Shown: in pieces, positions 47,585-53,266 of the stretch | Layout of the letters: each line of letters begins with the position of its first letter | Position numbering within the stretch: the first letter of the stretch is position 1 | Assembly: GCA_018262235.1 (NCBI GenBank) | Contig: JAGTRY010000009.1 | Coordinates: forward strand, 1 to 64,000 | DNA from: Pseudomonadota bacterium | Lineage (GTDB): Bacteria > Pseudomonadota > Gammaproteobacteria > Burkholderiales > Rhodocyclaceae | Reading direction: 5' to 3' | Length of the DNA stretch: 64,000 bases | Notes under the pieces: model-generated | Told to the model about the DNA's origin: nothing | Seen by the model: the letters and a program-made list of their open reading frames with translations, nothing else | The model's database searches: none | Translations under genes and position numbers: made by a program

Positions 47585-47712
47585 GCTCGGGATCCGCGTT
47601 GGGAATGACAGACGGGATTATGCCTGTTGGGCGGGAGGAGGGCTATCTGGCCGAAGGGGGCGTGATCCGCCATGCGGCAGGTGAGGACGCATACGAAGCG
47701 CTTGAATCAATC

Positions 47713-47730
47713 ACTATATGGTTATATAGT
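47713..47730. promoter_or_regulatory. AT-rich palindrome ACTATAT-GGTT-ATATAGT upstream of DUF4395 gene
   Basis: Perfect 7-bp arms in an AT-rich promoter-like stretch in otherwise GC-rich DNA. Confidence 0.55.
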
Positions 47731-47762
47731 ATGTTTATACAAAATTCTCCCAGGAGTTTGCC

Positions 47763-48182
47763 ATGCTGCGATTCGATGTTCCGCCCGTCTGGTCCAATGC
47801 CGTGCGTGTAGACGCGCTGCTCACCTTTGCCATCAGCGCGGCGGCCTTGCTCGGTTTTCCGTATCTGGTGCCGGTGCTGAGCGTGATGAGCCTGGTCCGT
47901 GGTTTCCTGGGCCATCATCGCTGCCCTTCGCATCGGCTCTATGCGGGCTTGCTGCAGAAGCTTGGCATGGCCGGCAAGCAGGAAAATGCCGGTGCCAAGA
48001 TGTTTGCCAACAAGCTGCTGCTGATCGCCAGCACCATCGCTACGGTGCTCTATCTTGCGGGAAGTGGCATGTGGGTGCTGCCGGTGTCGGCCCTGCTGGT
48101 GTTCTCTTTCCTCGAAAGCCTGTTCAGCTTCTGCGTGGCTTGCTGGGCTTACACCTTGTGGTATCGGCTGCGCGGGGCGTGA
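47763..48182 (+). CDS. DUF4395 family membrane protein
   Basis: FSFCVACWAYTLWYRLR terminus; GFLGHHRCPSHRLYAG. Confidence 0.75.
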   Translation: MLRFDVPPVWSNAVRVDALLTFAISAAALLGFPYLVPVLSVMSLVRGFLGHHRCPSHRLYAGLLQKLGMAGKQENAGAKMFANKLLLIASTIATVLYLAGSGMWVLPVSALLVFSFLESLFSFCVACWAYTLWYRLRGA

Positions 48183-48377
48183 GCCCCATGGTCACCGCTT
48201 ACCACCCGCCTGTAACCGCATACCCGCGGCAAGTCGCCACTGGCAGGAATGTTGATCCATTCCCGGCGTGTGTTTCTAAGATAGGCAGGCCCGCATGTCC
48301 GTGCGGGCCACCCATTTCGCGAGACGCCGCTGGTGCAGCAAAGCCCCGGCGCCTCAGGTCAACCCGGAACGCTTGCC

Positions 48378-48662
48378 ATGCTCACCCTTTCAGACGACGC
48401 CCTTGCCCTCATCGCCGAACGTCAGCAATCTATCTACATCGACGCGCCGCAAACCATCGAAGCTTGTTGTCTGGAAATCACGGCCTGCCCCACTGTCCGC
48501 TTCGGCAAGCCGCGTGCGCTGGACAAGTACACGCTGCGGCAGATCCAGGGCGCTGAAGTCTATGTGCCGCACCGCTTTCCCAGCGCACACACACTGTCGA
48601 TCCGTGCCAAGCGCTTTCTCGGGCGCAGGTTCCTGTTCATCCACGGCTGGAAACTGGCCTGA
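48378..48662 (+). CDS. CC/Se-motif family protein (Cys form)
   Basis: IDAPQTIEACCLEITACPTVRFGKP...AKRFLGRRFLFIHGWKLA; CC motif where some homologues carry Sec. Confidence 0.6.
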   Translation: MLTLSDDALALIAERQQSIYIDAPQTIEACCLEITACPTVRFGKPRALDKYTLRQIQGAEVYVPHRFPSAHTLSIRAKRFLGRRFLFIHGWKLA

Positions 48663-49183
48663 ACCTCGGCGGCACAAGCGTGTCTGCTTGAGCGTTTCAT
48701 GAAAACCGCATCATATGTTTCCGCTTAGGGCGCTTATTGCCGCTGCGGCCCCGGTCCTGGCATGGCGACTGCTTGTAAACGACCAGTGCTGTTTTGTTGC
48801 ATGTGTTTGCCCCACGAGGCGATTGTCTGTGTTCCCTTCCGGAGGAGGGTCGGACCGTCAGCTCGCGGGACTGGCCGGATCCCTTGCGGGATGCGGCCGG
48901 CACAGAACGACAGGCCACCGGCGCCCTCCCCAGCCGTTGTACCAATCAGGTGTGTTCTGCGCCTGAAGGGATGAGCGCCGCCCATCCCATTTCTCCATCT
49001 GCAGTTTTACGGGTGTTGCTCATCGAGGCTTTGTGCCGGTGACCATGCCCGTTTTGTGGTCATTCCCTTGCTGAAACGCACCAGTCCTGTGCGGCTCGGG
49101 CCGTACGGGCCCGGACTGTCTGTATGGGGGCGCCGCCGGCGTCGATGTAGGCTTTCCGTGGATTACGCAATGGGAGTCGAAGC

Positions 49184-49783
49184 ATGAAATCAAATCGTCA
49201 TCATCCGGTGATCCGGGTTCTGCACTGGGCAGTTGCCTTCATGGTTGTGGCCGCACTGGCTATGAGTACCTTCGTCATGGCGAAGATTCCGGACCAGGAT
49301 CCAGAAAAGCTCGCCGCATCGCTGCGTCACATGAGCGTGGGCCTGCTGATCTGTCTCGCCACGCTGGCGCGCCTCGTCTATCGCCGCAAGACCAAACGCC
49401 TGCCGGCCCTCTCCTCCGGCATGGCCTGGGCCGACGTGCTGGCCGCCATCGTCCACCGCTCGCTCGACGTGCTGGTGCTGACCATGGTGGTGAGCGGTAT
49501 CGCCATGGCGCTCATGAGTGGTTTGCCGCTGATTGCGCTACACGGTGGCGCCTTCCCGGTGGCGATCAATCACATGAGCGCGCACACCATCCACGTCGTG
49601 GTGGCGAACGTGCTGGCCGGCATCCTGGTGCTGCACATCGGGGGCGCGCTGTTCCACCAGTTCATCCTGCGTGATGGCCTGCTCTCGCGGATGATGTTCG
49701 ATCCGCGCACCCTTCTCCAGCGCATTCCCGGCCTCGACGGGGTGCTCAAACTGTCTTCCCAATCCGCCAGCCGGAAGGCCTGA
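49184..49783 (+). CDS. Cytochrome b561/b-domain membrane protein
   Basis: HHPVIRVLHWAVAFMVV, LRHMSVGLL, HTIHVVVANVLAGILVLHIGGALFHQFILRDGLLSRM with paired His. Confidence 0.88.
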   Translation: MKSNRHHPVIRVLHWAVAFMVVAALAMSTFVMAKIPDQDPEKLAASLRHMSVGLLICLATLARLVYRRKTKRLPALSSGMAWADVLAAIVHRSLDVLVLTMVVSGIAMALMSGLPLIALHGGAFPVAINHMSAHTIHVVVANVLAGILVLHIGGALFHQFILRDGLLSRMMFDPRTLLQRIPGLDGVLKLSSQSASRKA

Positions 49784-49861
49784 GCACGCACGGTCTGCTT
49801 GAGTGTTTCAACCCCTTCCCTTGCCAGGGGAGGGGCATCTGGTGGGCATATCGCGCTGGTT

Positions 49862-50353
49862 TCAGCGCAGCAGCGCCATCGCCAGTGTGTCGAAGTATTC
49901 GCCATCGATGCAGTTGCCGCGCCGGCGTACCCCCTCCGCAACGAAGCCAAAACGGTCGTAGAGTGCGCGCGCATTGGGGTTGTCACAGCGTACGGTCAGC
50001 TCGATGCGGGTCAGCCCTTTGGCCCATGCCTTATCTAGCGTCGCGGCCATGAGGCGTGCGCCCAGGCCTTGATGGCGGGCCGACGGGATCAAGCCGATAC
50101 CCAGATGTCCCACGTGGGCCTGCACCGGCATCATGTTTGGCAGTACATCACACCAGCCCACCACTTCTTCATCTTGCAAAGCGACGAACTGGCACAGGTC
50201 ATTGGTAACAATGTTGCGGTAGAACAGCAGGGATTGCTCGAAAGGCGGAGCCTGCAGGAAAGCCAGATATTTCCGCTCGCGCGCCACGATATCCAGCGCA
50301 CGGTGCAGGCCGTGAAAGTGTGCTTCGGTGGTGGGGGCGAGGGTGTAGGGCAT
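49862..50353 (-). CDS. GNAT family N-acetyltransferase
   Basis: IGLIPSARHQGLGARLMAATLDKAWAKGLTRIELTVRCDNPNARALYDRFGFVAEG. Confidence 0.92.
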   Translation of the reverse strand: MPYTLAPTTEAHFHGLHRALDIVARERKYLAFLQAPPFEQSLLFYRNIVTNDLCQFVALQDEEVVGWCDVLPNMMPVQAHVGHLGIGLIPSARHQGLGARLMAATLDKAWAKGLTRIELTVRCDNPNARALYDRFGFVAEGVRRRGNCIDGEYFDTLAMALLR

Positions 50354-50372
50354 GGGGTTCGGGACAATTTTC

Positions 50373-50580
50373 GTAGGTTGGAAAAGCGAAGCGCCTTTTG
50401 GCATATAGGCGCTCAATCATGCGCAAGATTGTTGCTACCACGCTCCGCGTGGTAACGCCTGTGCGGACGTTCCTGCATCCCTTTTGCGAAGCCGGAGCAA
50501 GTCGACGCAGAGCGTCTCAAAACGGGTTCCCACGCAGGAGCGTGGGAACCATCAATTCATTCCATCCAGCCCAACCTACG
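50373..50580. repeat. About 208-bp intergenic mosaic repeat with 10-bp terminal inverted repeats and internal hairpins
   Basis: Ends CGTAGGTTGG / CCAACCTACG; internal GCTACCACGCTCCGCGTGGTAACG and GGTTCCCACGCAGGAGCGTGGGAACC palindromes. Confidence 0.75.
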
Positions 50581-51610
50581 CGCTTAAGCGCTGCAAAATA
50601 AAGTTTGCAACCTCACTGGGATTGAATTTTCGAGCGTCGATATAACCATCGATTGATAAAACACCATCGACTGGAGCATCGTCAAACCGGATGAACATAA
50701 CCCGATCATCCTCTTTGGTTTTGATGATGTCGCGGATGGCTCTCCATTCCAAGCCACACCAGTGTTTTTGAGCGTATTCGGAAGAAAGAAATACGACGAG
50801 TAGTTCGCTTTGTTTACGATAGATATTCTGAAGAAACGTATCTAGGTTAGGCCGAGCAAGCTGAGCTTGATAGTCATAGTCGTAGAAAATGGAGTCTGGT
50901 CCAAGGGTTTGTCGAAGCGCGCTAACTACATCTACTACGAACCCCCTTCGTTCGCCAGGAAACGACATTGCGACCTTGAAATTGATATCGGCAAGACAAC
51001 GAATGGAACGGTCAACCTTTCCAATCGAGAGATCTTCCGCAAGACGTTCCAGTGCTAACAGCGATAGAGAAAACGGATCTGGTTCAATTTTGTGGACGAA
51101 CTCTCTCCCTGGACTTGTCATGGAAAGGTGGTAGAGCAGAAAGTTGATCCAAATAGCTAGCGGATTGTCGTTTGTAACTACGGTTGGCTTTGCTGAAGGA
51201 TGCGCTGAACGTTTGCTTTGAATGATTTCGTCTGTCACTCGGCACTTGATGGTTCTGGCTTCTTGCTCGTCGAATAAGCTGCCCGCACGTTGAGCCATCC
51301 TGACGAATAAGTCGTATGCATGGCCTTCAATTATGGCAAAGGCTGAAGTCTCAGCCCCCCGCAGCCCCCATTGAAGCTCGCTTTCTTGAATGTTTGTTCC
51401 TAGATGATCTGTGTCTCGTGCGGAGTCAAGTTGTCCGTAGTATTGCCACAACATGATTGCGTGGTTGGGCGAAGAAAATGTGCGATCTACGCTTGCGCCT
51501 TGTTGACCCACAAAAAAGGTGCTCAGCTGAATGTCTGTGAATTTTGAAGCTTCACCCTCAAAAGCTTTGAGCAAGCGCTGAATTTCGGCAGATTTAGTCG
51601 ATAGGGGCAT
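50576..51610 (-). CDS. TIR-domain protein with uncharacterised N-terminal domain (candidate NADase/defence effector)
   Basis: C-terminal INFKVAMSFPGERRGFVVDVVSALRQTLGPDSIFYDYDYQAQLARPNLDTFLQNIYRKQSELLVVFLSSEYAQKHWCGLEWRAIRDIIKTKEDDRVMFIRFDDAPVDGVLSIDGYIDARKFNPSEVANFILQRL; lower GC than neighbours. Confidence 0.8.
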   Translation of the reverse strand: MPLSTKSAEIQRLLKAFEGEASKFTDIQLSTFFVGQQGASVDRTFSSPNHAIMLWQYYGQLDSARDTDHLGTNIQESELQWGLRGAETSAFAIIEGHAYDLFVRMAQRAGSLFDEQEARTIKCRVTDEIIQSKRSAHPSAKPTVVTNDNPLAIWINFLLYHLSMTSPGREFVHKIEPDPFSLSLLALERLAEDLSIGKVDRSIRCLADINFKVAMSFPGERRGFVVDVVSALRQTLGPDSIFYDYDYQAQLARPNLDTFLQNIYRKQSELLVVFLSSEYAQKHWCGLEWRAIRDIIKTKEDDRVMFIRFDDAPVDGVLSIDGYIDARKFNPSEVANFILQRLSA

Positions 51611-51626
51611 GTTAATTTCAGAGCGG

Positions 51627-53168
51627 TTACCGCCTCCCCCCCAGAATCGACCCCAACACCCCGCGCACGATTTCGCGTCCGACCGCGCTGCCGATGGTGC
51701 GGGTCATGGATTTGGCTGCGGCCTGGGCGAGGCCGTCGTGATGGCCGCCGCGCGGGCCAGTGGTGCCGAAGAGCACGTCGCCGAGCATGCCACCCAGGCC
51801 GCCGAGCAACCCACCCCCTTCGCTTTGCGGCGCGGGCTGGGTGTTGCCGGGCAGGCTGCCTGACGATGCAGGTGCAGCGCCCGTCTTCGCGGCAGGGGCG
51901 GCCTGCAGTTTCTCGTAGGCGGATTCGCGGTCCAGCGCTTCTTCGTAGGCGCCATACACCAGCGAGTTGTTGATCGCCGCGTTGCGCTCGTCCGCGTTCA
52001 AGGGGCCAATGCGTGAGCTGGGGGGCAGCACGAAGGCGCGTTCGACAATGCAGGGCGTGCCCTTGGCGTCCAGGAAGGAGATCAGTGCCTCGCCCACACC
52101 CAGTTCGGTGATCGCGGCTTCGGTGCTGAACTTGGCATTCGCGCGCATGGTTTCGGCGGCGACCTTGACGGCCTTCTGGTCGCGCGGGGTGAAGGCGCGC
52201 AAGGCGTGCTGCACGCGGTTGCCGAGCTGGCCCAGCACCGTGTCCGGCACATCCAGCGGGTTCTGGGTGACGAAGTAAATGCCGACGCCTTTGGAGCGGA
52301 TCAGGCGTACAACCTGTTCGATCTTTTCCAGCAGCGCGGGCGGAGCGTCATTGAAGAGCAGGTGGGCTTCGTCGAAGAAGAACACGAGTTTGGGTTTGTC
52401 CAGATCGCCGGCCTCAGGCAATTGCTCGAAGAGCTCGGCGAGCATCCACAGCAGGAAGCTGGCGTAGAGCTTGGGCGCGTTGGTGAGCTTGTCGGCGGCG
52501 AGGATGTTGATCACGCCGCGACCATTCGCATCGGTCTGGATCAGGTCCATGATGTTGAGCATCGGCTCGCCGAAGAACTTGTCGGCGCCTTGTTCTTCGA
52601 GTGTCAGCAGGCCGCGCTGGATCGCGCCAATGCTGGCGGCGGAGACGTTGCCGTATTTCGTGGTCAGCTCGCGGGCGTTCTCGCCGATCCATTGCACCAT
52701 GGCGCGCAGGTCTTTCAGGTCGAGCAGCAGCAGGCCATTGTCATCCGCAACCTTGAACACGATCTGGAGCACACCGGCCTGGGTTTCGTTGAGCGAGAGC
52801 AGGCGCCCGATCAGCAGCGGGCCCATGTCGGAAATCGTGGCGCGCACCGGGTGGCCTTCGGCACCGAAGACGTCCCACAGCGTGAGCATGAATTTCGCCG
52901 GCTCCCAATCCTTCACGCCGAGCGCGTCGAGGCGTTCCTGCAGCTTGGGCTTGAGTTCGCCCGCAGCACCGAGGCCGGAGAGGTCGCCCTTCACATCGGC
53001 CATGAACACGGGCACGCCGATGTTGGCGAAGGATTCGGCCAGTTTCTGCAGGGTGACGGTCTTGCCGGTGCCGGTAGCGCCGGTGATCAGGCCGTGGCGG
53101 TTGGCGAATTGGGGCAGCAGGGCAATTTCGGTGTCGCCAGTGCGGGCGATGACGAGGGGGGCACTCAT
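51627..53168 (-). CDS. HerA-like ATPase (DUF853, YjgR-like)
   Basis: Walker A GATGTGKT, Walker [45 protein letters not shown]. Confidence 0.92.
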
Positions 53169-53235
53169 GTTCTCAGGTCTCCATGCAAGAGGCTTATTTA
53201 TACCTTCTCCAGCCATCTGGCTGTGTGCCAGGATG

Positions 53236-53266
53236 CAAAAAAACGGGCGCGAAATTTTGCGCCCGA
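53236..53266 (-). terminator. Rho-independent terminator
   Basis: Minus strand CGGGCGC-N8-GCGCCCG followed by a T8-like tract. Confidence 0.85.

Follow-up and report, generated by a model that had tools for sequence, protein, structure and literature searches.

In the window, the 64,000-nucleotide stretch of DNA analysed here, a gene for a TIR-domain protein directly follows a gene for a HerA-like ATPase, which raises the question of whether the two form a defence pair or whether the TIR gene came to lie beside a housekeeping gene with which it has no functional tie. We consider it likely that the TIR gene, gained by horizontal transfer, encodes an anti-phage effector that works alone, namely a mobile TIR NADase that consists of a single protein, with an N-terminal phage sensor in the manner of SpbK. 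We therefore describe it as a candidate for single-gene TIR defence that was acquired beside a housekeeping ATPase gene and whose product has an uncatalogued and sensor-like N terminus.

Domain composition of the TIR protein

The TIR gene (50576..51610, minus strand) encodes a protein of 344 amino acids, with an N-terminal domain (residues ∼1-205; 50996..51610, minus strand) followed by a C-terminal TIR_2 domain (residues ∼211-344; 50579..50980, minus strand). The chosen start codon is supported because all seven aligned full-length sequences, the window protein included, begin at the same methionine. In Pfam, TIR_2 (PF13676) matches residues 213-329 with an E-value of 1e-8 and 36.1 bits, which exceeds the curated cut-off of 28 and places the protein in this family, and PF01582 (TIR) falls just below its own cut-off (20.7 versus 21.3). 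With a model of the whole protein as the query, the top Foldseek matches were MyD88 TIR structures, a comparison that tests the TIR part only. The glutamate of the WCGLEW motif, E288, is invariant across the seven sequences, as are S216 and W284, and the segment D244-x-D246 is conserved; the glutamate at the catalytic position is also kept in the TIR relatives L002, L049 and L050.

Scanned alone against Pfam, residues 1-208 gave nothing at E ≤ 1, the match of the N-terminal domain to PHROGs was at chance level and an N-terminal profile found no match in the PDB at E ≤ 10. When the entire 344-residue protein was used, PADLOC returned no match, PHROGs gave chance-level matches only and the NCBIfam matches were all below cut-off and none near it, the best being to a TIR-like family. 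The term uncatalogued is thus relative to Pfam, PADLOC, NCBIfam and PHROGs. Across the seven sequences, 49 N-terminal positions are invariant. Two AlphaFold2 predictions (six sequences) were of low confidence in this region (mean pLDDT 46.5), and for this reason the fold search was read for its TIR part alone, leaving out the N-terminal model (pLDDT about 47).

These results agree with what the preliminary description had said of the protein: the C-terminal TIR-like domain is borne out by the TIR_2 score and the MyD88 fold matches, its glutamate does lie at the expected position, and the ∼200-residue N terminus, said to belong to no recognised family, has none in the four libraries. The HMM search that it had proposed likewise assigned the TIR part to TIR_2 and nothing to residues 1-208, and the structure prediction yielded TIR fold matches for the TIR part and low confidence over the N terminus. 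Its reading of the gene as a putative TIR effector is supported by homology and by the defence-island context of the relatives set out below.

Given the low confidence of the N-terminal model, the assignment of this domain as a probable phage sensor rests on architecture and conservation. It is quite possible, if not quite probable, that the domain is the first of a new phage-sensing fold and that the protein stands for a family of single-gene TIR defence proteins that is rare, has been transferred widely and inserts beside CBASS, Gabija and Thoeris. If the reading as a stand-alone effector is correct, the protein adds an uncatalogued family of single-gene TIR defence, recognised as a whole by none of the libraries searched, and ordinary phage-escape genetics could then reveal the trigger of its conserved candidate sensor.

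Proposed mode of action and the neighbourhoods of relatives

SpbK of Bacillus subtilis ICEBs1 is a proven NADase in which a phage portal protein binds the N-terminal domain and, by clustering the TIR domains, switches on NADase activity; the cryo-EM model of SpbK covers the TIR part only (PMC12847820). The window protein resembles it in that an N-terminal domain and a C-terminal TIR domain are joined in a single protein carried on mobile DNA. SpbK is however shorter, with 266 residues and an N-terminal domain of ∼94 residues as against ∼205, and no SpbK entry was among the matches of the profile searches of the PDB. A two-part architecture is present in the window protein, with a putative sensor role for its N terminus.

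Because SpbK is the closest worked case by architecture, we propose that in the window protein a sensor drives the clustering of TIR domains and that these cleave NAD+, and from this model we infer NADase activity, the sensing of a trigger, protection from phage and abortive infection. The N-terminal domain would most likely recognise a product of the phage or some other sign of infection, and this recognition would cluster the C-terminal TIR domains into a head-to-tail assembly with a composite active site. The clustered domains would then cleave NAD+ through Glu288, and the loss of NAD+ would stop the growth of the infected cell or kill it. Swarozyc (DUF4062) is a further TIR-like NADase that is switched on by a phage portal (PMC13174449); the families differ, being DUF4062 in one case and TIR_2 (PF13676) in the other, and the Pfam scan gave no DUF4062 match to the window protein.

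Six full-length relatives of the TIR protein, with 45-67% identity, come from several bacterial groups. A genome scan found five of them at 57-67% identity, in Variovorax guangxiensis and in metagenome-assembled genomes labelled Deltaproteobacteria, Rhodocyclales, Pseudomonadales and Nitrospirae, and a conjugative plasmid of Bradyrhizobium carries the sixth (∼46%). Their gene neighbourhoods, tested with PADLOC and Pfam, place these genes in a defence-island context. On the conjugative plasmid (L010), JAB, ThiF/E1, cyclase and Cap4-SAVED genes of a CBASS system precede the TIR frame, which starts 24 nt past the Cap4 stop on the same strand. In L015 the relative directly follows Gabija GajA and GajB, again on the same strand (E-values of 4e-205 and 4e-134), and in L012, a Tn7-like, TniQ-bearing locus, it is surrounded by genes for Thoeris ThsA (1.6e-186) and ThsB (7e-59), a SEC-C protein, a caspase-domain protein and TniQ. 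A PDC-S19/DUF3644 gene, a PADLOC candidate, lies two genes downstream of the relative in L013. Three of the six relatives are thus found by proven defence systems and a fourth by a candidate system, a figure to be read as a count and not as an enrichment test; in L011 and L014, for which one neighbour each was scanned, no defence neighbour was recognised.

Some bacterial TIR enzymes produce a signal for a partner protein instead of depleting NAD+. The window protein might accordingly make a messenger derived from ADP-ribose and so switch on a separate effector, in the way that ThsB serves ThsA; in favour of this role is L012, where a caspase-domain gene lies two genes downstream of the relative with the Thoeris locus nearby. 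Type IV Thoeris employs a caspase-like protease (PMC12847820). ThsB is likewise a TIR-fold immune protein, but the window protein has no match to the ThsB_TIR model of Pfam and none in PADLOC, the neighbouring genes that were scanned include no ThsA, and by these measures the protein does not belong to Thoeris. Given that no neighbouring effector gene recurs across the seven TIR loci and that nothing beside the window copy is a candidate receptor, we think a signalling role unlikely. At L012:9078-10608, downstream of the TIR relative, the caspase-domain gene is preceded by one for a 279-aa protein with no family match.

The relatives that sit on the same strand directly after Cap4 and GajB could also be taken to mean that the gene is an accessory module, joining whichever defence system adjoins it, such as CBASS Cap4 or Gabija, and not a system in its own right. 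The partner differs at every locus, however, and none recurs; none was recognised in L011 or L014, and the window copy has no defence island around it, which makes this reading decidedly improbable and leaves a stand-alone effector as the preferred one.

Imperfect hairpins resembling attC sites were also seen in two of these loci. One directly follows the TIR stop codon in L011 (4866-4925), and L013 has two (869-916 and 2395-2442), one of them just upstream of the TIR gene. Judged by their form, they suggest integron-type cassette carriage in L011 and L013, and an integrase motif sought in both loci was not found. An open frame of 497 aa (L002:1501-1941) joins a different N terminus to a related C-terminal TIR domain (WCKVEW), and the frame beside it is one that we take to encode a MoxR-type AAA ATPase. 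This TIR clade seems to be shuffled among conflict systems.

Arrival of the TIR gene

With a GC content of 47% (GC3 of 0.46) compared with 62% for the window, and with a GC3 of 0.71-0.82 in most of the neighbouring genes checked, the TIR gene is acquired by horizontal transfer. The protein is absent from congeners (0/7), including those that do have the HerA_C ATPase, and a class sample queried with the N terminus lacked it in 368 other genomes. One additional class sample, searched for further N-terminal relatives without a positive control, yielded none.

Alignment by blastn with two congeners (G007 and G002) showed that a block at 47630..51625 is absent from the equivalent position in these relatives. 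Matches extend up to ∼47.6 kb and, after a gap of ∼200 nt, continue from ∼51.63 kb, the end of the HerA_C gene, and because they resume after such a short interval, ∼4 kb of the window (47630-51625) must be extra. In the nearest relatives, the ATPase gene abuts a gene that sits 4 kb off in the window. The block contains genes for DUF4395, a 109-aa frame, cytochrome b561, GNAT and TIR proteins, and the TIR gene stands out from the others, which have 60-63% GC. Since segments matching the DUF4395 and cytochrome b561 genes occur elsewhere in congeners, the block is composite, and on this comparison the TIR gene was probably a separate arrival.

Palindromic REP/BIME-like repeats (50370..50581) lie between the GNAT and TIR genes, their outer motif overlapping the TIR stop codon. 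A DNA search found pieces of this element in four genomes of the genus, G007 having ∼10 short matches. An Rfam search and a tRNA scan of the window found nothing, and hence the window showed no attachment site borne by a tRNA gene. A phage origin of the gene was considered and rejected, as neither a single-sequence nor a profile query found a relative in viral contigs; the phage collection gave one weak TIR-domain match only.

An acquired gene of this kind might be decaying, or inert and of no present function. The lack of a promoter-like site in the region and of defence neighbours in the window would fit such a gene, but the 344-aa frame is intact and the invariant positions persist where identity to the nearest five relatives is 57-67%, and we regard this reading as very unlikely. 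The window's own genome has a second TIR_2 domain (G000:C159:173-538; L062), which scores 101 bits versus 38.7 for the window copy.

The adjoining ATPase gene

The ATPase gene (51627..53168, minus strand) matches HerA_C/DUF853 over its full length (PF05872, E = 1.4e-228). The ATPase is present in 82 of the 101 genomes sampled from the taxonomic family and in 6/8 genomes of the genus, and it is a core gene, a housekeeping neighbour that lies outside the system. To the anti-phage HerA family of NCBIfam (HerA_antiphage, NF042943) it scores 18.7 bits, where the cut-off is 800, and its matches to the HerA models of PADLOC are partial and weak; it belongs to neither set. When the frames of the HerA loci of 33 relatives (38 locus records, with five relatives in duplicate, and flanks mostly of 1.5 kb but of several kilobases in five congeners) were searched with a profile that contains TIR (A1), no TIR neighbour was found (0/33), the single match being at chance level (E = 0.6). 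A HerA neighbour is likewise missing from all six relatives of the TIR gene.

The preliminary description had offered two accounts of this adjacency, and it is the second, a TIR gene acquired beside a housekeeping yjgR-type gene, that is supported by the phyletic pattern, the synteny break, the GC content and the contexts of the relatives. The first, a two-gene defence complex comparable with SIR2-HerA and DUF4297-HerA, in which a HerA-like ATPase gene similarly adjoins that of an NAD+-targeting or nuclease effector, could appeal to the shared strand, the 16-nt spacing and the lack of a minus-strand terminator-like site between the genes, but we reject it as the least likely of the explanations considered on phyletic and synteny evidence, because the ATPase is of the core HerA_C/DUF853 type, congeners have it without the TIR gene and the adjacency that the survey of DUF853 loci was meant to reveal is conserved on neither side. 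A HerA-effector pair should therefore not be read from adjacency alone where, as here, the HerA gene is a core gene, and the position of the TIR gene beside it looks accidental.

The remaining details given for the ATPase gene were accurate. It is a full HerA/DUF853 gene lying upstream on the same strand, with the 16-nt spacer between its stop and the TIR start at 51611-51626, and at most it would lend the TIR gene a transcript. Its longest frame starts at 53216, and the ATG at 53168, implied by the coordinates of the preliminary description, is the probable start codon. The terminator placed upstream of it at 53236-53266 corresponds to a terminator-like hairpin at 53244-53265 on the minus strand.
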